A stretch of DNA of 64,000 bases from Candidatus Obscuribacterales bacterium (GTDB taxonomy: Bacteria; Cyanobacteriota; Vampirovibrionia; Obscuribacterales; Obscuribacteraceae). The DNA is taken from NCBI GenBank assembly GCA_019745415.1, contig JAIETF010000003.1:1-64000 (forward strand). The letters run 5' to 3'. The notes under the pieces were generated by a model that was not told the DNA's origin, searched no databases, and saw only the letters and a list, made by a program, of their open reading frames with translations. Shown here piece after piece: positions 11,932-47,409 of the stretch; the stretch's first letter is position 1; every line of letters begins with the position of its first letter. Made by a program: the position numbers and the translations under genes.

Positions 11932-14900
11932 GTGAAAAGCCTCTTTGAAAACATCAAAAACGCCCTGCTCTCATGGGAATTTCTTTTTCTTAATATCATT
12001 TTTTTAGGTGTCGTGGCGATCATGCTGGAGACGCCCACCGGCTCTCTTGCCGGTAGTATCGCCCTTGAGGTGCCGAAAACCAATCTATTTAGTTATGACC
12101 TGAAAGGCAACCGGGTCTATGCCCTGGTGAATGGCCCGCGCAACGGACCCCATGTGGAAAGGGGCGCCTGGGTAAATAATGATGGCTCTTTTCAAATTGA
12201 TCAGCTTCCGGTGGGAGAGTACACCCTTGAGGTAAGAGCGCCCGGCTTTGGTCGCGAATTCGCCCGCGGGCTTTTTGTGGAAGACGGCAAAGTAGCGAAA
12301 ATGCCTAAACCCCTCAAATTGAGCCTGCTTTCGCCAAGTGTCAATATTGCCTCCAATAGTCGAGTTTTCACTACCAAAGACAAACCCAACTTTTGGGTGA
12401 ATGCCACCGGCGCCGCCGAAGCCACTGTCAAAGTCTATAAAGGCGAGCTGAAAAAATTGCTCGATGTTAAGTACGCCCAAAGCATCGGAGTGACTGTTTC
12501 TTCCGATCTATCTATGTACTTAGACTCGGCGCAGAAATTCAAAGATCCTTTTTCTAATCCTTTGCAAGAGTTTACTCGCAAACTCAGTCAAGATTCGAGT
12601 GATTCTTCCCATGCCGAATTTGCCTTCGAAAAGCCGCTGCCGCCTGGTGACTACTTCACTGTCTGTCAGGTAAAAGACCTCTTCGGCAAAGAAGGGGCGA
12701 CGGCAATGACCTGGTTTTCAGTCAGCGATATCGGCTTGGTTATAAAACAAAGCCCAGATGAAGCAGTGGTGAGAGCAGTAGACCTGGTCACCCTCAAGAG
12801 CGCACCAAATGTGGAGCTGGCTCTTTACCGCAAAGATGACTTGAACGCCGTTCAGGCCAGTGCAAAAACCGGTGCCGACGGCATCGCCCGCATTGCCATG
12901 AGCAAAGATCTACAATCAGTTTCGTCGCAAGATCTGATGATCTTGGGCAAATTAGGCGAAAGTAAAGCCTATGGCGGCTATAACTATTGGCGCTCAGATT
13001 CTGATACGCGCAAAACATATTTCTTCACCGACCGACCGGTTTACAGACTGGGGCAGACAGTGATGTTCAAAGGCATTTGCCGCAAAGTGGCCGCCGACGG
13101 ACTAGTCAACGCCGGAGCCGGTGAAGAGCTGGTTATGACTGTTGAAGACCCTGACAACAATTCTATTCAGAGCATCAATCTCAAAACCAATAAATACGGC
13201 GCCTTTTCTGGTCTGATCAATATTCCAGAAAATGGCAAAACCGGCGGTTATCAGGTACAAATTGCATATGGTGGCGAAAACACAAGCTATCACTCATTTG
13301 AAGTGGCGCAATATAGAAAACCCGAGTATCAGGTAGAAGTAGAGCCTATCTCAGAAAGACTGCTGATGGGCGAAAAAGGCAGAGCAAGAGTGAGGGCTAC
13401 TTATTACTTTGGCGGACCAGTCGCTGGTGCGCGAGTGAAGTACTCGATTTATTCCTCGACCGACTATTCGGCTCGCTGGAAACTTATGGACCGCCCCGAA
13501 TACTACGGCTTCTTTGACGGCTTCGAAGGTGACGACTATGACAGCAGTTCAGGTGACTACCTGACCGAAGGTTATGCCGTCACCGACGCCAACGGTGAAG
13601 CGATTGTCGAATTCGACACCACGGCGCCGACAATGCCGGCTAGTGGTCCTATCGGTTCCACCTTCCAAGACCGCAAGTTAAAGATAGAAGCTGAAGTTAC
13701 CGATATCAGCCGGCTCTCCGTGGTTTCCAGCGGCTATGTGCCGATGTCGGCAGCCGACTTTACCCTCTTTGTCGACCCGCGCAGCTATGTGGTCAAATCA
13801 GGCGAGAGCCTGCCTGTTTCGGTGAAAGCTGTCGACTATCAAGGCAAAGCCATAGCCAACAAAGCTGTAAACATCAAGATAATGCGCTTCCCTTATGACA
13901 GCATTAAACAAGAATATAAACCCGACCAAGTAGTGGTGCAACAAACCGTCACCACAGATGGTGCTGGCAAAGCTTCGCTTGATGCTTTCATTGGTGATCA
14001 GCTGCCTTCCGACAGTTATTATGTAGTGGCGGAAGCAATTGACGACAAACAGCGTAAAGCGGTGGACACCAACTCTATATGGATAGCCCAGGGTGAAAAA
14101 CCATTCTTTTTTGCTGAAAACGAAGCTAAAGTACAGCCACTGACTATCAAACTCGACAAAAAGGTCTATAAACCAGGCGACAAAGCCCGCGTTATTTTGA
14201 GCGGACCCTTCACCGGCAAAGAGGGCTTTGAAGCTCTTGTCTCTGTGGAAGGCACCAAAATTCACGAACTGAAAGTGGTGCCCTTGACCAGTTCGGCTCA
14301 GCTTGTGGAACTGGACATCAAAGACAAGTACGCCCCCAACTGCTTTGTTTCGGTGGCGGTTGTAGGCAAAAAGCGTCAGTTCTACACCCTGGAAGAGACC
14401 GTTCTGGTTAGCCCTGATTCGCACTTTATGAAGCTAGCCGTTAAATGCGACAAAGAGAAATATAAACCCGGCGATGATGCCGTCTATACCATAGAGGCCC
14501 GCGACCAAGCCGGCAAACCGGTGGTCGGAGCGGAACTGGCGATGGCGGTCGTTGACGAAAGTATTTATGCCATCAGAGGCGAAGCGGCTGAAGACATCTG
14601 TAAGTTCTTTTATAGTCGCGTTAATAACTGGGTGACCACGCTCTGCTCTTTCCCTGAACAATATTCAGGCGGACCGGACAAGATGGAACCGCGGGTGAGA
14701 AAAGACTTCAAAGACACTGCCGCCTGGTTCCCAAGCCTGATCACCGATAGCCAGGGCAAGGCTGTAGTTAAGTTTAAGATGCCCGACAACCTGACCACCT
14801 GGCGCGCCACTGTGCGCGGTATCACTCTCGGCACCGACGTGGGCAGTACCGTGTCAAAAGTAATTGCCACCCAGGACATTATTGCCAGACTGGCTCTGCC

Positions 14901-16947
14901 TCGCTTCTTCTCGCAAGGCGATCAAGGGCTGGTGACGGCGGTGGTGCACAACTATACAAGCAAAAATCAAGACGTAAAACTCAATCTCGAGCTTTCCGGC
15001 GACGGTCTTTCCACCAATGTGCCTTTGGCTCAGACTATCTCGATTGCCCCCGATGCAGCCAAGCGATTCTCTTGGGCCGTTACTGCCAGTACAGTCGGTC
15101 AAGCCAAAATCAAGCTGACGGCTATCGGACAGACAGCTGCCGACGCCCTCGAAAAGACTGTAGCGGTAAGACCGATGGGTGTGCCTGTCAGTCTGGTAAG
15201 AGCTGGTCTGATGACCAGAGACGATCTAGAAAGACAGGTTGAATTTGCCCAAGCAGCCGACGCCGTGCCCGGCACAATCAGTCGCAATCTCAGTGTGAGT
15301 GGTTCGACCATAGGCCCTGTACTGGGTAACTTCAAGGCGCTTATCGAATATCCCTACGGTTGTACCGAACAAACCATGAGCAGACTTGTGCCTTCGACGA
15401 TTGCCTTGCAACTCAGCCGTCAGCTCAATATGCCGCTTTCAAACAGCGAGAAACAGCTCTTTGACAAAGTCTATAAAGAAGCCATGGCCAAGATCACTTC
15501 TTATCAGCATGGCGACGGAGGCTGGGGCTGGTGGCAAAACGACGAAAGCAGACCGTATCTGACCAGCTATGTCATGGAAGGGATGAAACTCTTGGCTGAT
15601 TCCGGCTACAGCGTCGACCGCGAGGCTATGAAACGAGCTTCGCAATGGACCGATGAAAGAGCCAAACTCTTGCTCAAGGCTCTCAAAGACCCTAAACGTC
15701 TCAAAGAAATCCCGAGCGAAAAGGAAAATCAGACCGACCTGGCCTATATGCTCTATAGCCAGTCTCTGTGGGGCTTCAAAGCAAATAGCCAGCAAGAAGT
15801 CTTGACCTATTTGAGAAGTGCTGAAGTCTTGCCGCAACTGACGCCGGAAGCATTGGCTTATCTAGCGCGTGCAGCCAATAATATTGGCTTATCGGAAAGA
15901 GACACAGCCACGGCTGCCATTAATAGATTGGTAGAAATCGCCAATAATACCGACGACACAATCGACTGGGAATATACAAAGAAACTCGCCGACAAACTCG
16001 GCGACCGCGAGCAACTCTGGTATTCATATAGGTTCTCGCCGGAAGAGACAACCGCGCTTGCCCTTGCCGCCATTGTCGAGGTCAAGCCCAATTCAGAGAT
16101 AATTGAGAAAACCAAAAATTGGCTGCTTATCACTAGAGGTAAGGACGGCTGGGGTTCAACCAAGGCGACGGCGCAAGTCTTCAAAGCCCTGCTTATTGAA
16201 GAAATTGCCGCTCGCAAAATGGATGCCAAGGCCAGCCTTTCAGATACACTCAGCCAAGGCTTCTCTTGCCTGGTGGATGGTATCGCCTATAGTGACAGCA
16301 ATCGTTACGGACAAGAGACCAAGGTCAATTTCGATAAACTGGGCAACCAAGGCGGTAAAACAATCATCGCCAATAAAGGCGGCGGCCGCTTGTATTACTT
16401 TGCCGAAACCCGTTACTTCAAAAATCTAAACGGCAAAGCTGCCACCGGCGTCGAAAATCTGCCAAGCGATCTAAAAATGGAAAGACATTTCTATCGCATC
16501 AAAGCACTGCCGCCTTCTGCCGACGGTACAGTAAGACTGAAGACAGAGACCATTGCCGATGGTCAAATCAAAGCCGGCGAAACCGTGCTCATGAAGACCA
16601 TTGTGACAACGCCTAGAGAACTGCCCTATATTATGGTGGATGCCTGCCTACCAAGCGGCGCGGAAGTTGTGCAAGATAGCGCCAAAGAGGGCAATATCGA
16701 AGCAGAGACTCAAACCAATGCCCCCCTGGGAGACTGGGGTGAGCCCTGGTGGACTCATCAAGACGTTTTGGACGATCGCATTATCTATTTTGGAGCCTCT
16801 CTCAAACCAGGACAATCTGAGTTTTCCACTTTGATAAGAATGGAATTGCCTGGCAAAGTAGGAGTACCGCCGGTATCTATGGAAGGTATGTATACAAAAG
16901 CTGTGAGAGGCTTGTCAAATCTGGACGTATTGAAGATCGCCGAATAG
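11932..16947 (+). CDS. Alpha-2-macroglobulin family protein with thioester
   Basis: 1671 residues, close to the length of bacterial alpha-2-macroglobulins. A GTG start is followed by a membrane segment (about 14-32) that anchors or exports it. A row of macroglobulin beta-domains follows, including DRPVYRLGQTVMFKG (about 367) and YRKPEYQVEVEP. The thioester motif GCTEQ has Cys1144 and Gln1147 intact, inside the alpha/alpha-toroid domain with GDGGWGWW and DGWGSTKATA. Such proteins trap attacking proteases by covalent thioester bonding after bait cleavage and guard the periplasm. In proteobacteria the gene is usually paired with PBP1C; here the nearest transpeptidase is on the other strand 0.9 kb away. 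AMMECR1 lies before it and VanW after it. Confidence 0.95.
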   Translation: MKSLFENIKNALLSWEFLFLNIIFLGVVAIMLETPTGSLAGSIALEVPKTNLFSYDLKGNRVYALVNGPRNGPHVERGAWVNNDGSFQIDQLPVGEYTLEVRAPGFGREFARGLFVEDGKVAKMPKPLKLSLLSPSVNIASNSRVFTTKDKPNFWVNATGAAEATVKVYKGELKKLLDVKYAQSIGVTVSSDLSMYLDSAQKFKDPFSNPLQEFTRKLSQDSSDSSHAEFAFEKPLPPGDYFTVCQVKDLFGKEGATAMTWFSVSDIGLVIKQSPDEAVVRAVDLVTLKSAPNVELALYRKDDLNAVQASAKTGADGIARIAMSKDLQSVSSQDLMILGKLGESKAYGGYNYWRSDSDTRKTYFFTDRPVYRLGQTVMFKGICRKVAADGLVNAGAGEELVMTVEDPDNNSIQSINLKTNKYGAFSGLINIPENGKTGGYQVQIAYGGENTSYHSFEVAQYRKPEYQVEVEPISERLLMGEKGRARVRATYYFGGPVAGARVKYSIYSSTDYSARWKLMDRPEYYGFFDGFEGDDYDSSSGDYLTEGYAVTDANGEAIVEFDTTAPTMPASGPIGSTFQDRKLKIEAEVTDISRLSVVSSGYVPMSAADFTLFVDPRSYVVKSGESLPVSVKAVDYQGKAIANKAVNIKIMRFPYDSIKQEYKPDQVVVQQTVTTDGAGKASLDAFIGDQLPSDSYYVVAEAIDDKQRKAVDTNSIWIAQGEKPFFFAENEAKVQPLTIKLDKKVYKPGDKARVILSGPFTGKEGFEALVSVEGTKIHELKVVPLTSSAQLVELDIKDKYAPNCFVSVAVVGKKRQFYTLEETVLVSPDSHFMKLAVKCDKEKYKPGDDAVYTIEARDQAGKPVVGAELAMAVVDESIYAIRGEAAEDICKFFYSRVNNWVTTLCSFPEQYSGGPDKMEPRVRKDFKDTAAWFPSLITDSQGKAVVKFKMPDNLTTWRATVRGITLGTDVGSTVSKVIATQDIIARLALPRFFSQGDQGLVTAVVHNYTSKNQDVKLNLELSGDGLSTNVPLAQTISIAPDAAKRFSWAVTASTVGQAKIKLTAIGQTAADALEKTVAVRPMGVPVSLVRAGLMTRDDLERQVEFAQAADAVPGTISRNLSVSGSTIGPVLGNFKALIEYPYGCTEQTMSRLVPSTIALQLSRQLNMPLSNSEKQLFDKVYKEAMAKITSYQHGDGGWGWWQNDESRPYLTSYVMEGMKLLADSGYSVDREAMKRASQWTDERAKLLLKALKDPKRLKEIPSEKENQTDLAYMLYSQSLWGFKANSQQEVLTYLRSAEVLPQLTPEALAYLARAANNIGLSERDTATAAINRLVEIANNTDDTIDWEYTKKLADKLGDREQLWYSYRFSPEETTALALAAIVEVKPNSEIIEKTKNWLLITRGKDGWGSTKATAQVFKALLIEEIAARKMDAKASLSDTLSQGFSCLVDGIAYSDSNRYGQETKVNFDKLGNQGGKTIIANKGGGRLYYFAETRYFKNLNGKAATGVENLPSDLKMERHFYRIKALPPSADGTVRLKTETIADGQIKAGETVLMKTIVTTPRELPYIMVDACLPSGAEVVQDSAKEGNIEAETQTNAPLGDWGEPWWTHQDVLDDRIIYFGASLKPGQSEFSTLIRMELPGKVGVPPVSMEGMYTKAVRGLSNLDVLKIAE

Positions 16948-19266: not shown

Positions 19267-20214
19267 ATGCCGCGTTTGCTCATTTTAGTCTTCTTTCTGA
19301 CAGTCTTCGGCTTGGTTGCCTTTACAGCCTTTCAAGCGCCGACCGAAAGCGGCACACCCGCCAAGAAAGCCGTCGAATTTATGGAGAATATCAAAGCCGG
19401 CGATTACAAAAAAACTGTGGAGGGCTTTGGGGTCAACACCTGCCGCTGTCCAGGCACATTAGGCTGGGCCTCCTATCTTGTCTATGCTTCAAACGAAGCC
19501 ACCAATATTGCTTTCATGTTCGGCAAAAGTTTTGACTATGGTGAACCTCATTGCCGCAAAATCGCCACCACTGTTCAAGCCACAACAGTCTTTGATAGAC
19601 CGGAAGACTGGGACGTCAATGTCGATCTGCGATTTGTCGACGGCAAGTTTCAGCCCCTTTTCTTGCCTCTAAAAATGGCTTACGGCTATGACATGAGCGA
19701 AGCAGAATTCAATACTTTTCTAGCCAATCCAGATGCCGACGCCTGGCAAGGCTTCTGCTTGCGCCTACGCCCAACCCTCGCCAAAGGAGTGACCGACTTT
19801 CCGGAAGAAGCAAAAGCTCTGGAAAAGAAAGGACATGATGCCGATAGCAGAGCCAAAGCTATAACCGGCGGCAATGAAAGAGCTGAAGCCATAGCCAAGA
19901 ACCTTTTCGGTGAAGAAGCCACTCAATATTTGCATCCTAAAGATGCCGGCGCCGTTATCAAAGCCGACGGCAGCAAAATGTCTGAACTGGAAATAGAAAG
20001 GCAACTGCCTCGGCTTTGCGCCGCCACTCTAAGGCTGCACATGGTCAGAAGAGACCAGAAACTCCCATTTTCGGTCTCGCAGATTCTAGTTATGGAGCCG
20101 GTTCTAACCAAAGTCAGTGAAAAGGGACAGTCCTACTTCCTTAAAATGAAGAACTATTTGCCGCCGGTACTACAGGAAGCCGCTAAAGCAGAAAACAGCA
20201 ACGAGGCGAAATGA
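19267..20214 (+). CDS. Exported or anchored hypothetical protein
   Basis: 315 residues, not recognised. One N-terminal hydrophobic segment (about 4-22) works as a signal peptide or anchor. The mature part starts with a helical stretch (AKKAVEFMENIKAGDYKKTVEGF) that resembles the entry of DUF4878/NTF2-like domains. A CRCPG segment and several further Cys residues follow, suggesting disulphides. The upstream gap (19094-19266) has an AACTAGA-type 8-bp repeat near 19160. A 59-residue membrane protein gene follows after one base. Confidence 0.7.
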   Translation: MPRLLILVFFLTVFGLVAFTAFQAPTESGTPAKKAVEFMENIKAGDYKKTVEGFGVNTCRCPGTLGWASYLVYASNEATNIAFMFGKSFDYGEPHCRKIATTVQATTVFDRPEDWDVNVDLRFVDGKFQPLFLPLKMAYGYDMSEAEFNTFLANPDADAWQGFCLRLRPTLAKGVTDFPEEAKALEKKGHDADSRAKAITGGNERAEAIAKNLFGEEATQYLHPKDAGAVIKADGSKMSELEIERQLPRLCAATLRLHMVRRDQKLPFSVSQILVMEPVLTKVSEKGQSYFLKMKNYLPPVLQEAAKAENSNEAK

Positions 20215-20404: not shown

Positions 20405-23400
20405 TCAAGAAGCCTTCAAACTTTTATTGCGCAGCGTTATGTAAAGAACAACAGCCAAAGGCGACAATAGATAAAGCAGAAGCGCCACCAAATCTGGTGC
20501 AAACGCCGGCAAGCCATAGGCGTAGATTGCATAAATAAAGATCAAACAATCATCTAAGACAATCTTGACCAAATAGGCAACCGGGTTGAGCCTAGCCAGT
20601 TTCGCCAAATAATACCAGAGCAAAGCCGAACCAATGGTACCGCAGCCGACATTGATTAAATAGTCCTGCCAGTAACGTTGCCCAGAGTTGACAATTAGAT
20701 CATAGACCACCGAAAAGAGCATATAGAACCCAAAATTGCGGCAGAACCTTACATAGAGCCCGACCGCAATGACAAACCCGGCAGCCGACATGAGAAAAGA
20801 CTGGGGCAACTCTAAGAGATCTGAAAAGACCGCCGAGAAATACTCGGGGAAATTGCCCAAGATATCAACGCGTTCGCTTCTAATGTCGGGCGAATAATAA
20901 AAGAGCAAAACAGAGCGCAAAGTTTCGCGCAACTGAGTCAGAGCCTCGATGGTCACGGCAGCGATAATACCGTCTATCCAGAGTTCTCTCTGGGTGAGCC
21001 TGTCGACTATACCGCGGGGTTTGAAGGCGGCTGACAAGAGAGGCACCAGTTCGGTTTTGAAGATCGGCTGTAAAAGTCGAAAAACGGCAAAGCAAAGAGT
21101 AAGGGTGAGGAAAACCCGCCAAAAGACACTGCCGCAGTGCTGCACCAGAGCGAGAGCACGCTCGGTAATATAAGTGATGTCAGTCAGTTCACTGCTATAG
21201 CCCGACCAAAATGAGGGTAGATGGTTGACCTGCTCAAGCAAAGGCACCAAGGCAAGCACAAGCGCTACCACCAGTGGTGCGCGAAAACGCATCACGCCGG
21301 AACGCAAAAGGCCAATCACCCAGACCAATAGAACAATACCCACAGCCACCGCACTGTAGAGCCGCAAGTTTTCCAGAATAGTGTCATAAGGACGGGCTTT
21401 GCTGCGCTCAAACGACCAAGCTTCGGGTACCTGCCAGGCCTGGCTGAAATTGCAGGGAAGGTCTCCCACCACTTGCAAACTAAAACGGTAAGGGGCGTCA
21501 CCTACTTGATATTCAGGCACGCCGAACTCAAAAGAATAGTCACGTCTATTCTTCTCGTCCTCCCAGCTTACTTTCGAAAGTTTGAAGTTCTTGTACTCAG
21601 GGTGCACTCTCTTGATATAAGCAAGAGCGATAGCAGTGGCTTCCTTTTCTGAAATACGCTTACCCGGGGCGTCATCGTCTTCGGTGAGATTTAGGGAATA
21701 CTCTGAGCCGTCGCCTCTCAGCTCTACGTGATATTCGGTCGGATCTCTAAATCTAAAATAGCGAACAGACCAGAGCAAGCCGGGCTGAGTCTGGTTGCCA
21801 AAAGCGAGCATTTTATCGCGCCCGACTTTCTCATACAGATATTGCATTTCATAGGTGCCCACATTGCTGAACAAAGTCGGCAAGACCATATGATGAGAAA
21901 CATTGATGCCTGCCTGCTTGAGAATCTGAGAGGCTTTATCCATGGCCTGGAAGGCATTAATCTTGACGCGGCTGTTATCGCCGGGCACAGGCAAATGGAA
22001 GAAGAAAGTGGCAACCAAAGCAAGCAGCGAGAAAAGCGAAGCCCCGATTCGGAAGCGTCGACTAAAGCCCTGGTATTGAAAATGCTCGATTGAAGCCGAC
22101 TCTTCCAGCTTAGCATTATCGGCAAGGGGAGCCGAGGCACTGGGCAGGGCACGATTTGTCAAAGAAAGATCGAAGGAGGCGAGATCGAAGTGGGAAGCCT
22201 GCCTGAGACTGCGCACCGCCAGCGATACTAAGAGCAAGAGGGCGAAGGGAAGCAGAGGCAGAAGAGAAGACAACCAGAGGAAAGGCTGGGCGGGACCGAC
22301 TGAGAAAAGCGGCTTGACATCAAGAAAAGCATCGAGCAAATAATGCCCTATAAAACAAGGAAGCAGTCCGTAGCGCCTGAGAATATAGCCATAGAACAAC
22401 CCGACTACGGTCAATTCTATACCGCGGGCAAAGCAGGGCTGTTGCGGATAAGAACTATGCATGAAAGCCCAAATCATAGCCTGGGCAAGATTAGCCAACC
22501 AAAACTTGCCGGTAGCTCTTTGTACGATTGAAAGACCGACAATACGCGCCACGGTCTCTTCTTGCGAAGCAGCGTGCAGTCCAAGCGATATCGCCGAATA
22601 GAAAGGCATGGTCGCGCTCAAGGTTTCGACACTGTCTATCCCGCTCGGGCACCAAAAATTGAGCTTCTCACCCAAAAGATAATAAAGAACAATCCAGCCA
22701 AGATGAATACCCGCAACAAGATAGCCGACCGATAGAGCCTTGCAGCCTTCACTACTCAAAAAACCTGGCAGCCTGAGAAAATTCTCTAGGGCGACGCGAT
22801 CTGGATAAAAGCGTCTATAAAGAGTGTCCGCCCCTCCAAACAAAATGGCGCCGAAAAGAGCAGAGCCTAATGCAGAGGCACCGCTTCTGGTGAAGTAACC
22901 GAGCACGAAATCGCTGTAAGCTACAGCAGTATCGTAAGAGGTGCGATAACTCTCAAAGTCGTTAATGCGATCCAGCAAAGAAACGATCGCCATTATCAAG
23001 CCGCCGAATACAGCAAAGCGAAAGCGCATCTCTTTGCGCGATATAGCCCAGGGCACAACCAAAACCGAGATAATCTGTAAGGTGCCGTAAAAAATTGAGG
23101 CAATATTCTGCAGCAAGTTATTGTACGAGCGCAGATTTTCATATTTGCGCGAAAAGCTGTCGGGCACGAACAGATAACGGGTATAGCCGGTGATCTTATC
23201 GCCGCTTATGCCAATATAGTGACGCAGCTTACCACCGGCATAATCTTTGGTTTGATCTTCGAAAACAAAAGTATAGTCGGTGCGGTGCAGTTGACCCCGG
23301 TTCTCGTCTCTCACCAATTTGCAGGTGCCGGCAGGCACCGCCACTTCACCCTTGAGAAAATCAGAGGCAAGATAAATAGCTTCTTGATGGTTGAGGCTTT

Positions 23401-23890
23401 TCATTGGCCGCTCGGGCTCTATGTTGCGACTAAAGCCAATCAGCTTGCCGTCGGGTGAAAGCCAGACGCGAAACTGCTCTATTTTAAATTCGCGACAAAA
23501 GCGCACAGACCAAGCCCATATAGGAATCTCACCCTGCATGAGTTTGGCTGAGTGACTGAGACCAAGCTCCCATTCAAGAAAAGTCTTGGCTTCTTCGAAA
23601 CTAGTGAAAACAATCGACTCAATATCTTTTCCCGGCTTTTCCTTGGCACTCTGTCGAGAGTGCGCCTGTGCAGGGGAGAGACCCGAATCGGGAAATATCT
23701 TGCCTTCATAGCCGTACTTTGATGCAAAGAAGCGAGCTTTTTCGAGTATCTGCTGACGACTGACCGAAAGATTGAGAGAGGCGGTTGGGAAAACAGAGCT
23801 TTGCAACCAAGAATAAAGCAAGAGGCCAAGCGCGGCCAAAACGGCCAGAACCGGCATGAGCCGATCTTTATTGTCCCCTTGTAATGTCAC
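20405..23890 (-). CDS. Giant CPBP-family (CAAX-type) intramembrane protease homologue with duplicated layout
   Basis: 1161 residues, several times the usual CPBP length. The protease domain lies near 360-530 and has the EETVAR motif (EExxxR, about 441-446), the helix with WAFMHSSYP (His about 472) and GHYLLDA, so the glutamic-protease site looks intact. Before it are a membrane helix and a PepSY-like extracytoplasmic module of about 230 residues. After it a second extracytoplasmic module (about 640-840) with the same style (WSVRYFRFRDP, KEATAIALAYIKR) is followed by a second polytopic region that lacks the EExxxR motif. The protein reads as a duplication in which one half kept the protease. 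CPBP proteases process prenylated or membrane peptides; the target here is unknown. Confidence 0.8.
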   Translation of the reverse strand: MTLQGDNKDRLMPVLAVLAALGLLLYSWLQSSVFPTASLNLSVSRQQILEKARFFASKYGYEGKIFPDSGLSPAQAHSRQSAKEKPGKDIESIVFTSFEEAKTFLEWELGLSHSAKLMQGEIPIWAWSVRFCREFKIEQFRVWLSPDGKLIGFSRNIEPERPMKSLNHQEAIYLASDFLKGEVAVPAGTCKLVRDENRGQLHRTDYTFVFEDQTKDYAGGKLRHYIGISGDKITGYTRYLFVPDSFSRKYENLRSYNNLLQNIASIFYGTLQIISVLVVPWAISRKEMRFRFAVFGGLIMAIVSLLDRINDFESYRTSYDTAVAYSDFVLGYFTRSGASALGSALFGAILFGGADTLYRRFYPDRVALENFLRLPGFLSSEGCKALSVGYLVAGIHLGWIVLYYLLGEKLNFWCPSGIDSVETLSATMPFYSAISLGLHAASQEETVARIVGLSIVQRATGKFWLANLAQAMIWAFMHSSYPQQPCFARGIELTVVGLFYGYILRRYGLLPCFIGHYLLDAFLDVKPLFSVGPAQPFLWLSSLLPLLPFALLLLVSLAVRSLRQASHFDLASFDLSLTNRALPSASAPLADNAKLEESASIEHFQYQGFSRRFRIGASLFSLLALVATFFFHLPVPGDNSRVKINAFQAMDKASQILKQAGINVSHHMVLPTLFSNVGTYEMQYLYEKVGRDKMLAFGNQTQPGLLWSVRYFRFRDPTEYHVELRGDGSEYSLNLTEDDDAPGKRISEKEATAIALAYIKRVHPEYKNFKLSKVSWEDEKNRRDYSFEFGVPEYQVGDAPYRFSLQVVGDLPCNFSQAWQVPEAWSFERSKARPYDTILENLRLYSAVAVGIVLLVWVIGLLRSGVMRFRAPLVVALVLALVPLLEQVNHLPSFWSGYSSELTDITYITERALALVQHCGSVFWRVFLTLTLCFAVFRLLQPIFKTELVPLLSAAFKPRGIVDRLTQRELWIDGIIAAVTIEALTQLRETLRSVLLFYYSPDIRSERVDILGNFPEYFSAVFSDLLELPQSFLMSAAGFVIAVGLYVRFCRNFGFYMLFSVVYDLIVNSGQRYWQDYLINVGCGTIGSALLWYYLAKLARLNPVAYLVKIVLDDCLIFIYAIYAYGLPAFAPDLVALLLYLLSPLAVVLYITLRNKSLKAS

Positions 23891-24003
23891 CTTAGTCTCT
23901 AATCAAACAACAACCATGAGATTTGATGATAGCAGGCTTAAGGACATTAACAAAAGCTGAATTTGATATATCTACAAGGGATAATTGTGAGCGTTTGTAA
24001 CAT

Positions 24004-25386
24004 GTGCAGGATCGATTTGCTGTGGCTATTAAGTCCGAAACTTATATGTGGGACAGGGAGCGCGAAACAATCGAGCGTCCTGAACTGTTGCTTTTGCAGG
24101 TGGAGCGGCTCAAGACCGTTCTCAAGCGCGTCTTTAAGAACCCGGTCATGCAAGAGCGTTATCTGGCGTCCGGTATCAAAGAAAGCGACATAGAGAAAAT
24201 CAGCTCGGTTAAGGATCTGGCTCGGTTTCCTTTCATGAAGAAAACCGACTTGAGAGAGAATTATCCCTTTGGTCTTTTTGCCGCACCGCTAAGCGAAGTC
24301 AATCGTCTGCACTGCTCTTCGGGCACCAAAGGCAAGCCAACCGTCGTTGGTTATACCAAGAACGATATAGATATCTGGGCACAAGCCTGCGCCCGTTCGC
24401 TGGCTTGCGCCGGCGGCAGACCGGGAGATGTTATTCACAATAGCTATGGCTATGGACTCTTCACCGGTGGTCTGGGCATGCATTACGGCGCCGAGCGCTT
24501 GGGCGCTACAGTCGTTCCGGCTTCCGGCGGTCGCACCCAGCAGCAAATCATGCTTCTGCAAGACTTCGGCGCCAAGATAATTCTCGCCACGCCCTCTTAC
24601 ATGCTCAACATGGCCTACACCATGCAAGAGATGGGCATCGCCCGCGATACCATCAATTTAGAAATTGGTATTTTCGGAGCCGAGCCCTGGACCGAAGAAA
24701 TGAGGGCGCAGCTGGAATCTTTACTGAAGATACAAGCCTTAGATATTTACGGACTTTCTGAGGTAATGGGTCCGGGTGTCTCGATGGAATGTATAGAGGG
24801 CAAAAACGGCCTGCACATTTGGGAAGATCTATTCATTCCTGAAATCATCGATCCAGACAGCGGCGAAGTTTTGGAGGACGGCGAAGAAGGTGAGCTAGTC
24901 TTCACCACCCTCACCAAAGAAGCGATTCCGGTAGTACGCTACCGCACCGGCGATATTTCTCGCTTGAGCACTGAGCCTTGTGTCTGCGGCCGTACCTTTA
25001 GAAGAATGTCGAGAGTAAAAGCCAGATTAGACGATATGCTCATTATCAGAGGCGTCAATCTCTATCCTTCCGAGATCGAAAAATGTTTGCTCTCGATGGA
25101 AGAACTGGCTCCACACTATCAGCTTGTCGTCGATCGCCATAAGGCACTCGACACCCTAGAGGTGCAAGTGGAAGTGACCGAAGCCCTGATTAAACGCTGG
25201 GGCAAATTTGAAGCCGGTCAGGTTGCACTCTCAGACCTTTGTGAGAGCATACAAAAGCTCCTGAAAGACTCGCTTGGTCTCACTGCCGACGTAAAGCTAT
25301 TGGAACCCCGTTCGATACCGCGAAGCGAAGGCAAAGCGGTGAGAGTTATTGATAAACGTAAAACTCAAGGAGATAAAAATGGTTAA
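24004..25386 (+). CDS. paaK: Phenylacetate-CoA ligase
   Basis: 460 residues, an ANL-superfamily ligase that makes aryl-acetyl-CoA from the acid, ATP and CoA. Key segments match PaaK closely: SSGTKGKPTVVGYT (AMP loop), SYGYGLFTGGLGMHYGAERLGATVVP, FGAEPWTEEMR, DIYGLSEVMGPGV, YRTGDISRL and the hinge region DDMLIIRGVNLYPSEIE. The frame starts at GTG 24004; an ATG at 24046 (MWDRERET) gives an N-terminus closer to other PaaK proteins, and neither has a strong ribosome site. The gene heads an operon with an EthD-like protein and three crotonase-fold enzymes. Phenylacetate or a related aryl acid is the likely substrate, although no ring-epoxidase genes are seen. Confidence 0.93.
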   Translation: MQDRFAVAIKSETYMWDRERETIERPELLLLQVERLKTVLKRVFKNPVMQERYLASGIKESDIEKISSVKDLARFPFMKKTDLRENYPFGLFAAPLSEVNRLHCSSGTKGKPTVVGYTKNDIDIWAQACARSLACAGGRPGDVIHNSYGYGLFTGGLGMHYGAERLGATVVPASGGRTQQQIMLLQDFGAKIILATPSYMLNMAYTMQEMGIARDTINLEIGIFGAEPWTEEMRAQLESLLKIQALDIYGLSEVMGPGVSMECIEGKNGLHIWEDLFIPEIIDPDSGEVLEDGEEGELVFTTLTKEAIPVVRYRTGDISRLSTEPCVCGRTFRRMSRVKARLDDMLIIRGVNLYPSEIEKCLLSMEELAPHYQLVVDRHKALDTLEVQVEVTEALIKRWGKFEAGQVALSDLCESIQKLLKDSLGLTADVKLLEPRSIPRSEGKAVRVIDKRKTQGDKNG

Positions 25387-25705
25387 GCTCATCGCTCTTT
25401 ACAAAATGCCGCAAGACGCTGCTGCCTTCGATGACAATTACTTCAACTCGCATATTCCGCTGGCAATGAAAATGCCCGGCTTGAAAAGAGCAGAAGTATC
25501 AAGAGTAACCGGTTCACCCATGCCCTCCAACGATTTTTACATGATGGCTGAACTTTATTTCGAAGATCAGGCAGCCCTAGACAGCGCCATGGCATCGCCG
25601 GAAGGAAGAGCGGCAGCCAAAAATCTTATGGGCTTTGCTAAAGAAATCGTGCACATGATGTTTGCATCTGTAGTAATTGAAGAAAAAGTACCGGCTGCGG
25701 TCTAA
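25379..25705 (+). CDS. EthD family protein
   Basis: 108 residues from the ATG at 25379, which overlaps the end of paaK by 8 bases and has an AAGGAG site. The dimeric alpha/beta-barrel (ferredoxin-like) fold of the EthD family is suggested by MVKLIALYKMPQD, FNSHIPLAMKMPGLKRAEV and the later MAELYFEDQAALDSAMASPEG block. EthD-like proteins are small and occur near degradation genes; some cleave or isomerise substrates and others have no known activity. Here it is likely to assist the CoA-ester pathway encoded around it. Confidence 0.85.
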   Translation: MVKLIALYKMPQDAAAFDDNYFNSHIPLAMKMPGLKRAEVSRVTGSPMPSNDFYMMAELYFEDQAALDSAMASPEGRAAAKNLMGFAKEIVHMMFASVVIEEKVPAAV

Positions 25706-25729
25706 TTTTCTTCTTCAAAGGAGCTTTTA

Positions 25730-26677
25730 ATGGCACATTCAAACGAGGCCGTATTTACCGGAATGGCTCCGGAAGTTTACGGCTTCAAGCGCATTATATA
25801 TAGCAAGGTCGGTTATGTGGCGACAGTGACCATCAACCGACCTGATGTGCTCAACTGCTTCGACACCCAGACGCTCAAAGAGCTTGGCACGGCCTATATG
25901 GACGCAGCCGCAGACGACAATATTGCCGTCGTGGTCATCACCGGTGCCGGAGATAAAGCCTTCTGCACCGGAGCTGATCTTAAAGAGCAAGAAGAATACA
26001 TTTTGAAAAAGCCGAACAACTATCACAAATGGATGTATCAGTTTATCGAAATGCACGACCGCCTGCGCAATATCGGCAAGCCAACTATTGCCCGCTTGAA
26101 CGGTATGACTGTGGGCGGGGGTAACGAGCTGAATATGGCTTGCGATTTAGCCGTAGCGGCCGATCATGTGGTGATAAGACAAGTGGGTGCCGCTCGAGGC
26201 AGCGTAGCAGCCGGCGGTGCCACCCAATGGCTGCCTATGATCATTGGCGATAGACGAGCCCGTGAGATGCTTCTTCTTTGCGAGCCTATCGATGCCTACA
26301 CGGCTCTCGACTGGGGACTGGTCAATCAGGTAGTACCATATTCGATGCTTGATGCAGCCGTCGCCGAACTAGCGGAAAAGCTCTATAACAAGCTGCCCGA
26401 ATGCACTCGCTATACCAAGCAGCAACTCAATTTCTGGCGTGATTTTTCTTGGTCGATGACAATCGGCCATGCCAGAGACTGGCTGACTTTGCATGCCGGG
26501 CATTTCGAAACGGCAGAAGGTCTGCACTCTTTCAAAAACAAACAAGAGATGGACTACAAAAAAATCAGACAGGCAGCCGCCTCTGAGAAAGCTAGCGATA
26601 GCAAGAGCTGCCCCGCCTGCCACGCTCAAATGCCTGAAGATTACGGTTTCTGCGGTAACTGCGGACACAAGTTTTAG
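25730..26677 (+). CDS. Enoyl-CoA hydratase/isomerase family protein with C-terminal zinc ribbon
   Basis: 315 residues. The crotonase domain (about 18-285) has VTINRPDVLNCFD, the oxyanion-hole segments AFCTGADL and GMTVGGGNELNMACD, and an unusual C-terminal half (NFWRDFSWSMTIGHARDWLTLH) that resembles ring-opening hydrolases of the BadI/Oah type more than simple hydratases. The last 30 residues hold a zinc-ribbon motif, CPAC with a later CGNCG, seldom seen on crotonases. A GGAG site precedes the ATG. It may act on a cyclic or aromatic-derived CoA ester. The precise reaction is not decided. Confidence 0.82.
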   Translation: MAHSNEAVFTGMAPEVYGFKRIIYSKVGYVATVTINRPDVLNCFDTQTLKELGTAYMDAAADDNIAVVVITGAGDKAFCTGADLKEQEEYILKKPNNYHKWMYQFIEMHDRLRNIGKPTIARLNGMTVGGGNELNMACDLAVAADHVVIRQVGAARGSVAAGGATQWLPMIIGDRRAREMLLLCEPIDAYTALDWGLVNQVVPYSMLDAAVAELAEKLYNKLPECTRYTKQQLNFWRDFSWSMTIGHARDWLTLHAGHFETAEGLHSFKNKQEMDYKKIRQAAASEKASDSKSCPACHAQMPEDYGFCGNCGHKF

Positions 26678-26711
26678 TGACTCACTTCAATTTAAGAGAA
26701 CATAAATAAAA

Positions 26712-27515
26712 ATGGTGATGACAATGACTTACAAAAACATACTGACCTCAAAAGAAGAAGCAGGCTCCCCCTCTTCTTATATAGCTATAGCAACTTTGAA
26801 CCGCCCTACGGTCTTGAACGCTCTCAACCACGAGCTGATGACCGAACTGGTGGCGGCATTGGCCGAATTCGACGCCGACGAATCAGTAAGAGCGATAGTC
26901 ATAACCGGCTCCGAAAGAGCCTTTGCTGCCGGTGCAGACATCAAAGAGATGTGCGATGAAACTACTGTTTCGATGATGCTCAAAGATAGACTGGCCACTT
27001 GGGACAAAATAAAAGAGATCAAGAAACCAATCATTGCTGCCGTAAGCGGCTTTGCTCTGGGCGGTGGCTGCGAACTTTCAATGATGTGCGACATCATCAT
27101 CGCCTCCGAAACGGCTCAATTTGGTCAGCCCGAAATCAACATCGGAGTCATTCCCGGTGCCGGCGGTACCCAAAGACTGACCCATGTGCTCGGCAAATAC
27201 AAAGCAATGGAACTGGTGCTCACCGGTCGCCCCTTCACAGCCAAAGAAGCGCATGAACTAGGACTGGTCAATAAAGTAGTACCGGTCGAGCTTTATTTGG
27301 AAGAAGCAAAAAATCTGGCCAAAGAAATTGCCGCAAAATCGCCGATTGCAGTAAGACTTGCCAAAGAGTCGGTACTGAAAGCTTTCGACGGCACCCTGGC
27401 TGAAGGTCTCAACTTCGAACGCAAAAACTTTTATATGCTTTTCTCATCAGAAGACCAAAAAGAAGGCATGAAGGCTTTCTTGGAGAAGCGCAAAGCCGTA
27501 TTTACCGGGCGCTAA
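26712..27515 (+). CDS. Enoyl-CoA hydratase
   Basis: 267 residues, standard crotonase length. The sequence has ATLNRPTVLNALN, the oxyanion segments AFAAGADIKEM and GFALGGGCELSMMCD, and the catalytic glutamates in GGGCELSMMCD and GQPEINIGVIPGAGGTQRL, matching ordinary short-chain enoyl-CoA hydratases (PaaF/FadB-N type, EchA-like). It would add water to a trans-2-enoyl-CoA in a beta-oxidation-like step. It follows the first crotonase after 34 bases and probably shares its transcript. Confidence 0.9.
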   Translation: MVMTMTYKNILTSKEEAGSPSSYIAIATLNRPTVLNALNHELMTELVAALAEFDADESVRAIVITGSERAFAAGADIKEMCDETTVSMMLKDRLATWDKIKEIKKPIIAAVSGFALGGGCELSMMCDIIIASETAQFGQPEINIGVIPGAGGTQRLTHVLGKYKAMELVLTGRPFTAKEAHELGLVNKVVPVELYLEEAKNLAKEIAAKSPIAVRLAKESVLKAFDGTLAEGLNFERKNFYMLFSSEDQKEGMKAFLEKRKAVFTGR

Positions 27516-27554
27516 TTCAATCTTTACATCGCATACTCATACAGGATCTACAAA

Positions 27555-28358
27555 ATGTCCAGCGAAAACGAAAAAATTCTATTGACCGAAAAGAAAAACG
27601 GCGTCGGCATCATCACACTGAACCGCCCCGACAAACTCAATGCCTTCAATGACGAGCTTACTTTTCAATTGCAAGATGCTCTCAAAGAAATGGAAAAAGA
27701 CAAAGAAGTAAGAGCAATCGTGGTCACCGGTGCCGGACGAGGATTTTGCTCGGGACAAGACCTACAGAGCCGCTCTATCGCCCAGGAAATGGGTCAGCGC
27801 CCCTCTCTAGGCGACAGCATCAGAAGACGCTACAACCCGATTGTCATCAAGTTGAGACGGATGGAAAAGCCTATCATTGCTGCCGTCAATGGTGTCGCCG
27901 CTGGTGCCGGTGCTTCGGTCGCCTTCGCTTGCGACTTCCGCATCGTCACAGAAAAAACCAATTTCATTCAGTCATTCACCAAAGTTGGTCTCATTCCAGA
28001 CTCGGGAGCGACCTTTATCTTGCCCCGTCTTGTCGGCGCCACCAAGGCCTTTGAACTAATGCTTTCAGCCGACAAACTCTCGGCGCAAGAAGCTTTCAAT
28101 CTGGGCGTGGTGAATAAAGTAGTCGCCGAAGAAGACTTGATGAAAGAAGCCCTGGCCCTAGCTGAGAAACTGGCTGCCGGTCCGAGCAAAGCTTTTGGAC
28201 TGACAAAGCGGGCGGTCAACAAGGCGATCTTCCACGACTTAGAAGAACTCTTAGAGTACGAAGCCTCTCTACAAGAAATAGCTGGACGCTCTGATGACTT
28301 CGCCGAGGGTGTGAAAGCCTTTATCGAGAAACGCACCCCTCAGTACACGGGCAAATAA
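27555..28358 (+). CDS. paaG: PaaG-like enoyl-CoA isomerase
   Basis: 267 residues. The pattern ITLNRPDKLNAFND, GRGFCSGQDLQ, AVNGVAAGAGASVAFACDFRI and KVGLIPDSGATFILPRLVG is typical of PaaG/PaaB-like isomerases, which convert 1,2-epoxyphenylacetyl-CoA to the oxepin or shift double bonds. The Asp in PDSG is the isomerase catalytic residue; the hydratase glutamate of the first loop is replaced by Ala. It closes the operon, and its stop TAA is directly followed by the stop of the convergent dapB-like gene. With no epoxidase genes in the window, a double-bond isomerase role is as likely as the true PaaG step. Confidence 0.8.
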   Translation: MSSENEKILLTEKKNGVGIITLNRPDKLNAFNDELTFQLQDALKEMEKDKEVRAIVVTGAGRGFCSGQDLQSRSIAQEMGQRPSLGDSIRRRYNPIVIKLRRMEKPIIAAVNGVAAGAGASVAFACDFRIVTEKTNFIQSFTKVGLIPDSGATFILPRLVGATKAFELMLSADKLSAQEAFNLGVVNKVVAEEDLMKEALALAEKLAAGPSKAFGLTKRAVNKAIFHDLEELLEYEASLQEIAGRSDDFAEGVKAFIEKRTPQYTGK

Positions 28359-44508: not shown

Positions 44509-47409
44509 CTAGCCCTCATGCTGCAGACCGAGATAATAGACGGCTTGACGGCAAGCATCGGTATGCGAAAGCTTGGGATTGCGCCGTCTTACGTCTTCGA
44601 TCATCTGCAAACGCCGCGGAATATCGCGTATCGGTTCGGATGTACAGATCCAGTAGTCCATCGGGCTGGGCACCAATCGAATCGTGCCGTGCACTGCCCC
44701 TACAATCAGCAAACATTGGCTGTCTCTGCGCTTTTCTTCGTCTCGGCTGAACTGCTCAATAGCTGCTGTTTCGGCATCGGTTAGACGCAATGTATCTTTG
44801 AGCATGCGTAAGTCGCTGGGATCTTGTCTGAGCAAAATCTTCATGTGCGAGTTTTTCACGACCGAATCGGCTTGCTCTGCTTGCCTGAAGAAGTCTTTCA
44901 ACTGCTGAGTAATACTGACGAGCATCATACCGTAGTGACGGGCTCGTCTCGAAAGGTCATCGAGCAATCTTGCCCCGGCTTTAAATCTCATCAAAGTGGC
45001 AGCCTCGTCTATGACCGCGGCAAAGCGCTGTCCACGTGCTTTAGAATCGGCAGCCTTACGCCTTATAAATTCAGCCAAGATGAAAACGGCTATACGTTCA
45101 AGACGAGGTTCGTTTACTTCTCTGGTATCAAATACGATGAATAGTTTTTCGGTCTCAATATTGGTAAGACCGTCCACCAGACCGCCAAAAGCGCCAGTTC
45201 TGGTAAAGAGTGAAAGACCTCGGGCAAACTGTTGCAAGCGATCCCTCTGCAAAGGATCAACTTCGTTGGCGGCAGCCTGAGCTGTTACCTGCGCCAAGTC
45301 GGTCATAGTCGGTACTTGGTTGCGGAAACTGGCTTCCATGTAGGCTAGACGGATGAGACCATCAAGCAAAGACTTCTCTTCTACAGAGAGTTCTTCGCGA
45401 CCTTCCGGGGCAAGCATCAAGTCTAGAAGAGAAAGCAGAGTTGAAACTTTGTCGGCGGAAGGCTCACCCATCTTGTCTTCAGGACCAAGATCAAACGGGT
45501 TCAAGACATAGCCGCTGGAAGGACCCAGATCGACATATGCACAAAGTTCGGGACCGAGCAATTCGGTGATAAAACGATAAGCACCGAATTTGTCTACTGT
45601 TTTATCAATGAGCACAAAGCGCGTGCCGAGAGGCAAAAGCCTGAGCATCATCATTGAAACGGCAAAAGATTTACCAGCCCCGGTGGTTCCCACTACGAAC
45701 ATGTTGTTAGCGTCTTTGCCCTGCCCTCTAAAAAATGGATTGAGCAGAACCGGTTCGCGCGAGGCAAGAGCGAAGCCGAAAGGCACACCATCGGGAGTAC
45801 CACAAGAGGCAGTAAAGAACGGCCACATCGTACCGACGATAGGTGACATAACACGATGAACGACGGCCATTTTGTCAACGCCGACAGCCAAGGTAGACTG
45901 CCAGAGGTCAAGCTGCAACATCTGTCCGCGGTCCATTTGAGCACCGCGGTTTTTGAAGACACGCCTGATTTCATCCATATTCTGAGCGAGATGCTCTGGA
46001 CTATCGCTTGCCGTTGAGAGATAGAGCGATACATCAAAAGCCTTGTTGGAACTGCGCAAGAACTCTTGAATAGCTTGAGCAGCCGACCGAGTCGATTCGA
46101 TACCTTCTAAGTCGGGGGTGGCCAACTGTGTGGAAGTAACGTGACCCATGCGGTATTTAAGTTTGAGTTCTTTCCTGACCCGGTCTTGGTCGCATTGATG
46201 AATAAAAAGCGAGAGGGTGTATTCAGTCGAAATAGTAAGCAAGTCGACAAGCCATCCCATCCAAGTTTCATGGGGAGTGGCGAACATATACTGGGTACCG
46301 ATGTATTTACCGTCCAACCAAACATATTCATCGGTGACCTTCATAGCCGAACCAGCTAGGGTTGAAGCTTCCGACATATTTGAGCGCGAAGGCGGCGCTT
46401 CGGGATCTTTTTGATAAAGTGATGGGTTGAGATCAGAATAGATCAAATTGCGCACTTCTTTGCGCGTCAAGACTTGCGGTCTCAAGTTTGATGTGCGTAA
46501 CTGCTCCACAGCCGTCTTCTTGAGACGATTCAATATCTCAAGATACTCTTCGTGCTTCTGAATTGAACGTCTGCCGCTCCAGCTCTTTCCGGTTTTGCAA
46601 TCGGGCGGATGATAACTGATCACTACATAAAAATCGCGTTGCGGCACGAAAGTTACGTCTTGTACCTTACGAAACCATTTGTCGGTATAGTCGGCATACC
46701 ACTTGAGATAGTCGTTGTCGGTCTTGAGCAAGATTTGATAACGCGACAGATATTCATCTACTGAAAGGTTGCGGCTTTTGATGATAATCTGAATGTCAGA
46801 CTCGCAAGAATTAGCAAAGTTGGCAAAAGTACGAGCCATAGTCTCGCGCTCGGCTTCGTCGAAGAGTAGAGCGTTAATGCCTTTACAAGAAATATATTTG
46901 CGAAAACTTCCGTCTGATAAAACAACTAGACCTTCTTCTTCGTCTTCACCCGGAATGGAATGAATAAAGCAAACGTCTTGCCAACTGCTGGCGCCTCTCT
47001 TGTCTGCGGTGGGACCATCATCGGAATGGGTATCGCTTTCTTCTTCGCCGAAGGGAAGCATCTCCCTTAGTTTTTCTGGCAGTCCGTTGTAGAAGCCGGC
47101 AATAATATTTTGGAAAGATGAATGAGGAGTGGTTGGTAACCGTTTACCACTGACAGATGGCGTGGCTAAACCGTAACTCTCATCATCGTCTTCGTCCTCA
47201 AAATCGTCTTCGTCATCTTCATCATAACGACCTCGACCAGGAGGCTTGCCTCTGGAACCACCAGACCCGCCGGAGCCCCCACGACCACCGGAGCCTCTAC
47301 CGCCAGAACTTCTGCCACCAGAACTTCTGCCGCCCGAATTAGAACCAGCAGAAGGACCCCGTCCTCCCGTTCCTCGTAATGCTGAATACTGGCTGTCGCT
47401 TCTTACCAT
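44509..47409 (-). CDS. virB4: VirB4/TraC-family type IV secretion ATPase
   Basis: 966 residues. After a disordered N-terminus with SGGR repeats (about 24-55) and an acidic run (about 62-76), the VirB4 N-terminal domain leads to the RecA-like ATPase. Walker A VGTTGAGKS is near 573-581 and Walker B FAAVIDEA near 795-802, followed by RHYGMMLVSITQQ and the DTLRLTDAE C-terminal segment. VirB4 ATPases power assembly and substrate transfer in every type IV secretion system and are its best marker. No conjugative relaxase or coupling protein is nearby, so the substrate may be protein rather than DNA. Gene symbol is by family only. Confidence 0.92.
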   Translation of the reverse strand: MVRSDSQYSALRGTGGRGPSAGSNSGGRSSGGRSSGGRGSGGRGGSGGSGGSRGKPPGRGRYDEDDEDDFEDEDDDESYGLATPSVSGKRLPTTPHSSFQNIIAGFYNGLPEKLREMLPFGEEESDTHSDDGPTADKRGASSWQDVCFIHSIPGEDEEEGLVVLSDGSFRKYISCKGINALLFDEAERETMARTFANFANSCESDIQIIIKSRNLSVDEYLSRYQILLKTDNDYLKWYADYTDKWFRKVQDVTFVPQRDFYVVISYHPPDCKTGKSWSGRRSIQKHEEYLEILNRLKKTAVEQLRTSNLRPQVLTRKEVRNLIYSDLNPSLYQKDPEAPPSRSNMSEASTLAGSAMKVTDEYVWLDGKYIGTQYMFATPHETWMGWLVDLLTISTEYTLSLFIHQCDQDRVRKELKLKYRMGHVTSTQLATPDLEGIESTRSAAQAIQEFLRSSNKAFDVSLYLSTASDSPEHLAQNMDEIRRVFKNRGAQMDRGQMLQLDLWQSTLAVGVDKMAVVHRVMSPIVGTMWPFFTASCGTPDGVPFGFALASREPVLLNPFFRGQGKDANNMFVVGTTGAGKSFAVSMMMLRLLPLGTRFVLIDKTVDKFGAYRFITELLGPELCAYVDLGPSSGYVLNPFDLGPEDKMGEPSADKVSTLLSLLDLMLAPEGREELSVEEKSLLDGLIRLAYMEASFRNQVPTMTDLAQVTAQAAANEVDPLQRDRLQQFARGLSLFTRTGAFGGLVDGLTNIETEKLFIVFDTREVNEPRLERIAVFILAEFIRRKAADSKARGQRFAAVIDEAATLMRFKAGARLLDDLSRRARHYGMMLVSITQQLKDFFRQAEQADSVVKNSHMKILLRQDPSDLRMLKDTLRLTDAETAAIEQFSRDEEKRRDSQCLLIVGAVHGTIRLVPSPMDYWICTSEPIRDIPRRLQMIEDVRRRNPKLSHTDACRQAVYYLGLQHEG

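Follow-up and report, generated by a model that had tools for sequence, protein, structure and literature searches.

The window described here is a stretch of 64,000 nucleotides from a Candidatus Obscuribacterales bacterium (GenBank assembly GCA_019745415.1, contig JAIETF010000003.1, positions 1 to 64,000 of the forward strand). A gene on its minus strand encodes a two-unit membrane protein (P0001, hereafter the window protein), whose first unit appears to be an intramembrane protease of the CPBP type and whose second appears to be a catalytically empty copy of the first. Unit 1 spans about residues 8-560 and unit 2 about residues 600-1157, as judged by sequence analysis. The source genome is that of an Obscuribacter-type melainabacterium; Candidatus Obscuribacter phosphatis (MOYA01000001) holds an orthologue that is 94% identical to the window protein over the full length. 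Conservation was read from 58 relatives, i.e., frames of at least 1000 amino acids taken from protein-search matches, with the window protein included. Shorter frames (L075, L038 and others, many at contig edges) were left out of this set, and L084, L085 and L073 also stand outside it. Some frames were begun at the first methionine, which leaves a few short N-termini. The gene and its parts are as follows.

20405 to 23890, minus strand: gene for the two-unit protein, 1161 residues, GTG start, exact open reading frame
23804 to 23860, minus strand: first membrane helix of unit 1 (residues 11-29), from hydropathy
23141 to 23629, minus strand: predicted exported PepSY-like module of unit 1 (residues 88-250), hhalign probability 99.8% to the module of unit 2
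22736 to 23119, minus strand: first membrane block of unit 1 (residues 258-385), hhalign probability 99.3% to unit 2, E value 3.4e-20
22211 to 22735, minus strand: predicted CPBP catalytic core of unit 1 (residues 386-560), mean pairwise identity 0.467, the highest of the segments
22544 to 22561, minus strand: EExxxR motif (E444-R449), with E444, E445 and R449 invariant in 58 of 58 relatives
22457 to 22471, minus strand: second motif, W474xFxH478, with W474, F476 and H478 invariant in 58 of 58
22331 to 22345, minus strand: third motif, H516xxxD520, with H516 in 58 of 58 and position 520 being D in 56 and N in 2
22055 to 22210, minus strand: linker between the units (residues 561-612), proposed to be cytoplasmic, mean pairwise identity 0.194
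21986 to 22054, minus strand: first membrane helix of unit 2 (residues 613-635), from hydropathy
21401 to 21973, minus strand: predicted exported PepSY-like module of unit 2 (residues 640-830), from a DUF4901 match and positions common with unit 1
20996 to 21379, minus strand: first membrane block of unit 2 (residues 838-965), from hhalign to unit 1 and the pairs N310/N889 and Y319/Y898
20420 to 20995, minus strand: degenerate CPBP core of unit 2 (residues 966-1157), without catalytic residues, ratio of nonsynonymous to synonymous substitution rates (dN/dS) 0.028 against the L043 orthologue

The two halves of the protein are clearly similar by blastp, by profile comparison and by HMMER, which bears out the internal duplication proposed in a preliminary description of the locus. 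With the single sequence, residues 1-570 and 571-1161 align by blastp across 198 residues (E value 2.7e-11), and the two halves of a paralogue on contig C5 of the same genome align at 1.8e-7. Profiles of the halves from the 58 relatives align over 522 columns with a probability of 100% (E value 1.5e-47 for one comparison). Reversed profiles, used as controls, gave 0.2-1.9% and off-register pairs 0.2-4.5%, and the explanation that membrane helices align with anything was ruled out on these values. Another CPBP protein of the same genome aligns in the core only. In HMMER, the C-half profile finds N halves with a best E value of 7.6e-53, and the N-half profile finds C halves with a best E value of 4.7e-41. 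Of the 58 relatives, 37 went into profiles A5 and A6, with L073 as an additional member of A6. A duplication peculiar to one genome was likewise ruled out, by the 58 full-length frames. Unit 2 is, by all of these comparisons, an old copy of the whole of unit 1.

The presence of a PepSY-like exported module and a membrane region in each half, also part of the preliminary description, is upheld by the alignments of the modules (99.8%, E value 1.3e-28, hhalign) and of the membrane blocks (99.3%) and by the domain matches. Near-invariant positions common to both modules are W127/W707, G148/G728, A171/A751, R203/R782, D205/D784, G230/G809 and P243/P822; those common to both first membrane blocks are N310/N889 and Y319/Y898. 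Each of them is kept in 53-58 of the 58 relatives. Pfam DUF4901 (YcdB/YcdC repeated domain), which we take to belong with PepSY, matches residues 698-803 of the window protein with 44.9 bits (cut-off 27), and its matches in this protein form two stretches. In a Pfam scan of the relatives, run as two sets of 29, DUF4901 was matched in 54 of 58, YPEB_PepSY1-2 in four of 58, and the Rce1-like model (PF02517) in 33 of 58 at an E value of 0.01 or better. Within the source genome only the window protein and the C5 paralogue match DUF4901. With sides assigned from hydropathy, lysine plus arginine amount to 0.135-0.307 per residue in the proposed inside loops versus 0.026-0.058 in the proposed outside loops, which is consistent with the export of both modules. 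The linker (residues 557-613) has 0.135 lysine plus arginine and 0.138 aspartate plus glutamate per residue, and its charge alone is ambiguous as to side.

The motifs listed above indicate that the first half carries the signature of intramembrane glutamic (CPBP) proteases; Y481, P485, R489 and E492 are also invariant in all 58 relatives. The second motif has the form W-x-x-x-H in 58 of 58, the usual second motif of CPBP proteases being F-x-x-x-H. These proteases are described as also having a pair of conserved histidines, each in another membrane segment (PMC6588880, PMC11980579). The counterparts in the C half (M1034, S1035, F1039, G1070 and I1110) are variable, with no conserved glutamate or histidine among the 58 relatives, and the second half therefore appears catalytically empty. 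This agrees with the earlier statement that only the first half keeps the EExxxR and histidine sites, which are found in unit 1 of all 58 relatives. An EE...R string occurs anywhere in the core in two of the 58 C cores, counted regardless of its register against the catalytic site. The core of unit 2 has conserved positions of its own, namely W971, D973, N1102 and P1144. Unit 2 may thus be termed a putative pseudoprotease, i.e., a part with protease homology (60.7% for the core itself), lost catalytic residues and continued constraint.

Constraint was measured against the orthologue in L043. The N half differs by 44 changes in 600 residues (dN/dS 0.063) and the C half by 24 changes in 561 residues (dN/dS 0.027); in this one orthologue pair, purifying selection on the dead half is strong. 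The preservation of the dead copy suggests that it has another job, e.g., in the handling or gating of the substrate of the first copy. A tree was made with a quick method from 57 N halves, 58 C halves and two single units from outside, the latter forming long branches; the L071 N half was too short and was left out. The N halves lie on one side of a branch with support 99, and all 58 C halves on one side of another branch with support 90. This topology fits one old duplication before the family diversified.

The protein search of the order was positive in 45 of 53 genomes; all 45 are among the 50 from the own family, and the three from the sister family have no match. In a sample of the class, 45 of 382 genomes match, all from the own family (0 of 332 others), and in a sample of the phylum the single match among 386 genomes is the source genome. 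Several genomes hold two to four matches, some being pieces of one frame. No match was found in 50,697 phage records, and tblastn against 72,556 plasmid records gave two, both single-unit proteins of Bacillota matched in the core; a phage or plasmid origin was rejected on these counts. The C5 paralogue (L009:3740-8502, plus strand) is a second full-length member in the source genome, 29% identical to the window protein. It matches PF02517 with 35.1 bits, above the cut-off, and receives no name from NCBIfam. Its gene and a MATE transporter gene share 19 bases, an overlap that is also found in L066, from a genome of the same genus. In L075, also of the same genus, one in-frame TGA breaks the frame of the orthologue; sequencing error and real decay are both possible. 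The source genome further encodes a 949-residue CPBP protein (L008:3829-6678, minus strand), whose long C-terminal part looks by eye like thioredoxin and PDZ/S41 protease domains.

The gene for the window protein stands alone. Its neighbours are genes for a PaaK-like ligase, EthD, enoyl-CoA hydratases, DapB and VanW, together with uncharacterised genes. The following features of the window lie around it.

11932 to 16947, plus strand: bacterial alpha-2-macroglobulin, 1671 residues
16979 to 17647, plus strand: VanW gene, adjoining the preceding gene
19267 to 20214: conserved gene with no Pfam match
23891 to 24003: gap of 113 bases between the protease gene and the divergent gene for the PaaK-like ligase
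24004 to 28358, plus strand: row of genes for a PaaK-like ligase, EthD and three enoyl-CoA hydratases, oriented divergently to the protease gene
44509 to 47409, minus strand: TraC/TraG-like conjugation ATPase
48584 to 54577, minus strand: frame of 1997 residues, after the TraC/TraG-like gene
54072 to 56630, minus strand: frame of 852 residues, no Pfam match

A PaaK-like ligase gene is found upstream in 13 of the 41 loci examined, and the conserved gene at 19267-20214 has counterparts at most three frames downstream in 11 of the 41. The alpha-2-macroglobulin/VanW pair is kept with the protease gene in several relatives. The first enoyl-CoA hydratase of the row ends in a zinc-ribbon-like tail. 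The neighbourhoods of the paralogues (MATE transporter, molybdenum-cofactor, DAGK/YbeY, beta-propeller, TPR and kinase genes) offer no common substrate candidate, and none of the contexts examined around family genes names a substrate.

The single unit, an exported module with a CPBP core, is already known from an SkfC-like protein. WP_066327480.1, encoded on an Anoxybacillus plasmid, has the same parts as unit 1, namely one membrane helix, an exported-type module, a membrane block and a CPBP core, the last with the EE motif. It is a single unit of 500 residues in an skf operon, its gene lying between skfA/skfB and skfF, whereas the window protein has two units with the second catalytically empty. 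Its profile alignment with unit 1 (98.6%) covers 458 columns, and its pre-core part alone aligns at 83% with unit 1 and at 92.5% with unit 2, the reversed controls being below 1%. SkfC is described in PMC8172795 as a putative protease of the skf cluster, which also holds the export/resistance genes skfE/skfF and a putative thioredoxin gene, skfH. A second single-unit protein, the CPBP protein of a Paenibacillus cellulosilyticus plasmid (L084:2753-4381, 542 residues), shows the same order of parts by eye; its core aligns with unit 1 at 99.4%, but its pre-core part is not significantly similar (3.1% and 20.8%).

These likenesses raise the possibility that the window protein is a maturation protease of the SkfC type, which would trim or cyclise a dedicated small peptide, the duplication being an elaboration of that job. 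In favour are the alignments just given and the setting of a free-standing homologue, L073, whose gene is divergent from genes for an ABC ATPase, a membrane protein and a thioredoxin-domain protein and whose neighbours recall parts of an skf-type cluster (compare skfE/skfF and skfH). On the other side, no skf genes, precursor peptide or radical SAM maturase were recognised among the neighbours of the window gene, and the radical SAM gene near L050 is of the molybdenum-cofactor type. The PepSY-like segments alone match the SkfC-like protein at 6.6% (unit 1) and 22.4% (unit 2), with one SkfC-like sequence being usable. We regard this explanation as rather improbable.

The homologue L073 (L073:4511-6277, minus strand, genome G032) is a free-standing unit 2 of 588 residues, which lacks the catalytic residues and aligns over 520 columns (100%). 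Its existence indicates that a dead unit can persist as a separate protein. Together with the conserved core positions W971, D973, N1102 and P1144, it lends some weight to an equally doubtful explanation, in which unit 2 is an independent membrane scaffold, a channel or a lipid- or peptide-binding part that was fused by chance and is not a partner of the protease. In 53 genomes, however, a single frame of full unit length matches unit 2 without unit 1, and fusion is otherwise the rule.

It is also conceivable that the protein is a non-proteolytic regulator that acts by binding a partner, as reported (PMC3578759) for Abx1, which has an Abi domain and interacts with a histidine kinase. Six catalytic-type positions are (near-)invariant across the 58 relatives; binding alone would not demand such invariance, and we consider this reading unlikely. 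A sorting protease of the myxosortase type, cutting a C-terminal tag from many surface proteins as a CPBP member does in Myxococcus xanthus (PMC11980579), is very improbable. In 25 stretches with 373 open reading frames (about 0.5 Mb, or less than 10% of a genome of 5.73 Mb), only five proteins have the right lone C-terminal helix, and these share no tag.

The explanation that we favour by a modest degree is an active CPBP protease with a fused pseudoprotease partner, in which gating or holding of the substrate falls to the exported modules. With E444/E445, H478 and H516 as its catalytic residues, unit 1 would cleave a substrate inside or at the membrane. Unit 2, as a built-in pseudoprotease, may pack against unit 1 in the manner of a permanently attached dimer partner, and the two PepSY-like modules, side by side on the outer face, could hold, admit or block a substrate or a regulatory ligand. 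That the exported modules sense or hold a substrate, as proposed in the preliminary description, is a hypothesis. PepSY proteins are reported as periplasmic regulators in the literature. From the likeness of the single unit to SkfC, the most probable substrates would be small peptides, exported or modified, or a specific membrane protein. APH-1 of gamma-secretase, placed in the same homology group as the CPBP proteases in PMC6588880, provides a precedent for a member of the CPBP fold working as a partner subunit, as proposed here for unit 2. APH-1 differs in being a eukaryotic subunit of its own and in having retained a QExxR motif and histidines, neither of which unit 2 keeps. The EExxxR motif, the second histidine motif and HxxxD/N are common to unit 1 and the CPBP or type II CAAX (Rce1-like) proteases of PF02517. 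Compared with those, the window protein adds a complete, dead second unit as well as a PepSY-like module of the exported kind as an insertion; the domains of the DUF4901 and YpeB PepSY kind are here set between membrane helices of a protease. More tentatively, the bacterial family as a whole may carry an intramembrane glutamic protease with a captured dead twin, i.e., a single-chain, obligate pseudodimer of active enzyme and pseudo-enzyme with the two PepSY-like modules as clamp or gate over the substrate, the logic resembling a fusion between a protease subunit and its partner.

Several points weigh against the pseudoprotease-partner explanation. The core blocks of units 1 and 2 align in register with an hhalign probability of 60.7% (E value 8.3e-5), so that the core of the second half is the weakest link of the duplication, yet it is in the right place and order. 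This core drifts faster, with a mean pairwise identity of 0.219 versus 0.467 in unit 1, and the dN/dS comparison covers one pair only. The 58 relatives were picked by length, and the frequency with which unit 2 is lost cannot be read from them. The window protein has no match to the Pfam Rce1-like model or to any NCBIfam model, even at an E value of 10. Structure prediction from shallow alignments gave unusable models, with a mean predicted local distance difference test score (pLDDT) of 32 for the full protein, aligned with L043 as the one relative, and of 41 for module 2 alone (AlphaFold2); with such models the packing of the units is purely a matter of conjecture. Sequence and profile searches of the PDB gave no credible match (best E value 0.52). 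Proteolysis, the substrate and the interaction of the units are all points that we infer.

CPBP proteases are widespread. To our knowledge, few substrates of the bacterial members are known and their regulation is mostly obscure. The preliminary description knew of no member with the present layout. This holds for the two-unit fusion, as no description of a CPBP/CAAX protease with PepSY or DUF4901 in this layout was found in open-licence papers, the only ones covered, which makes the negative a weak one. The single paper that joins CPBP with PepSY there concerns iron in Bacteroidetes, and among the titles listed for intramembrane CAAX pseudoproteases none deals with such a protein. It does not hold for the single unit, which is already present in the SkfC-like protein, and the novelty is therefore the fusion of an active CPBP unit to its own dead copy. 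Such a natural fusion of active and inactive CPBP units, kept throughout a family, makes it possible to test directly what an inactive CPBP fold is capable of, and also whether intramembrane cutting is under the control of exported PepSY-like modules. The window protein may in addition help in understanding SkfC, which has the same single unit.

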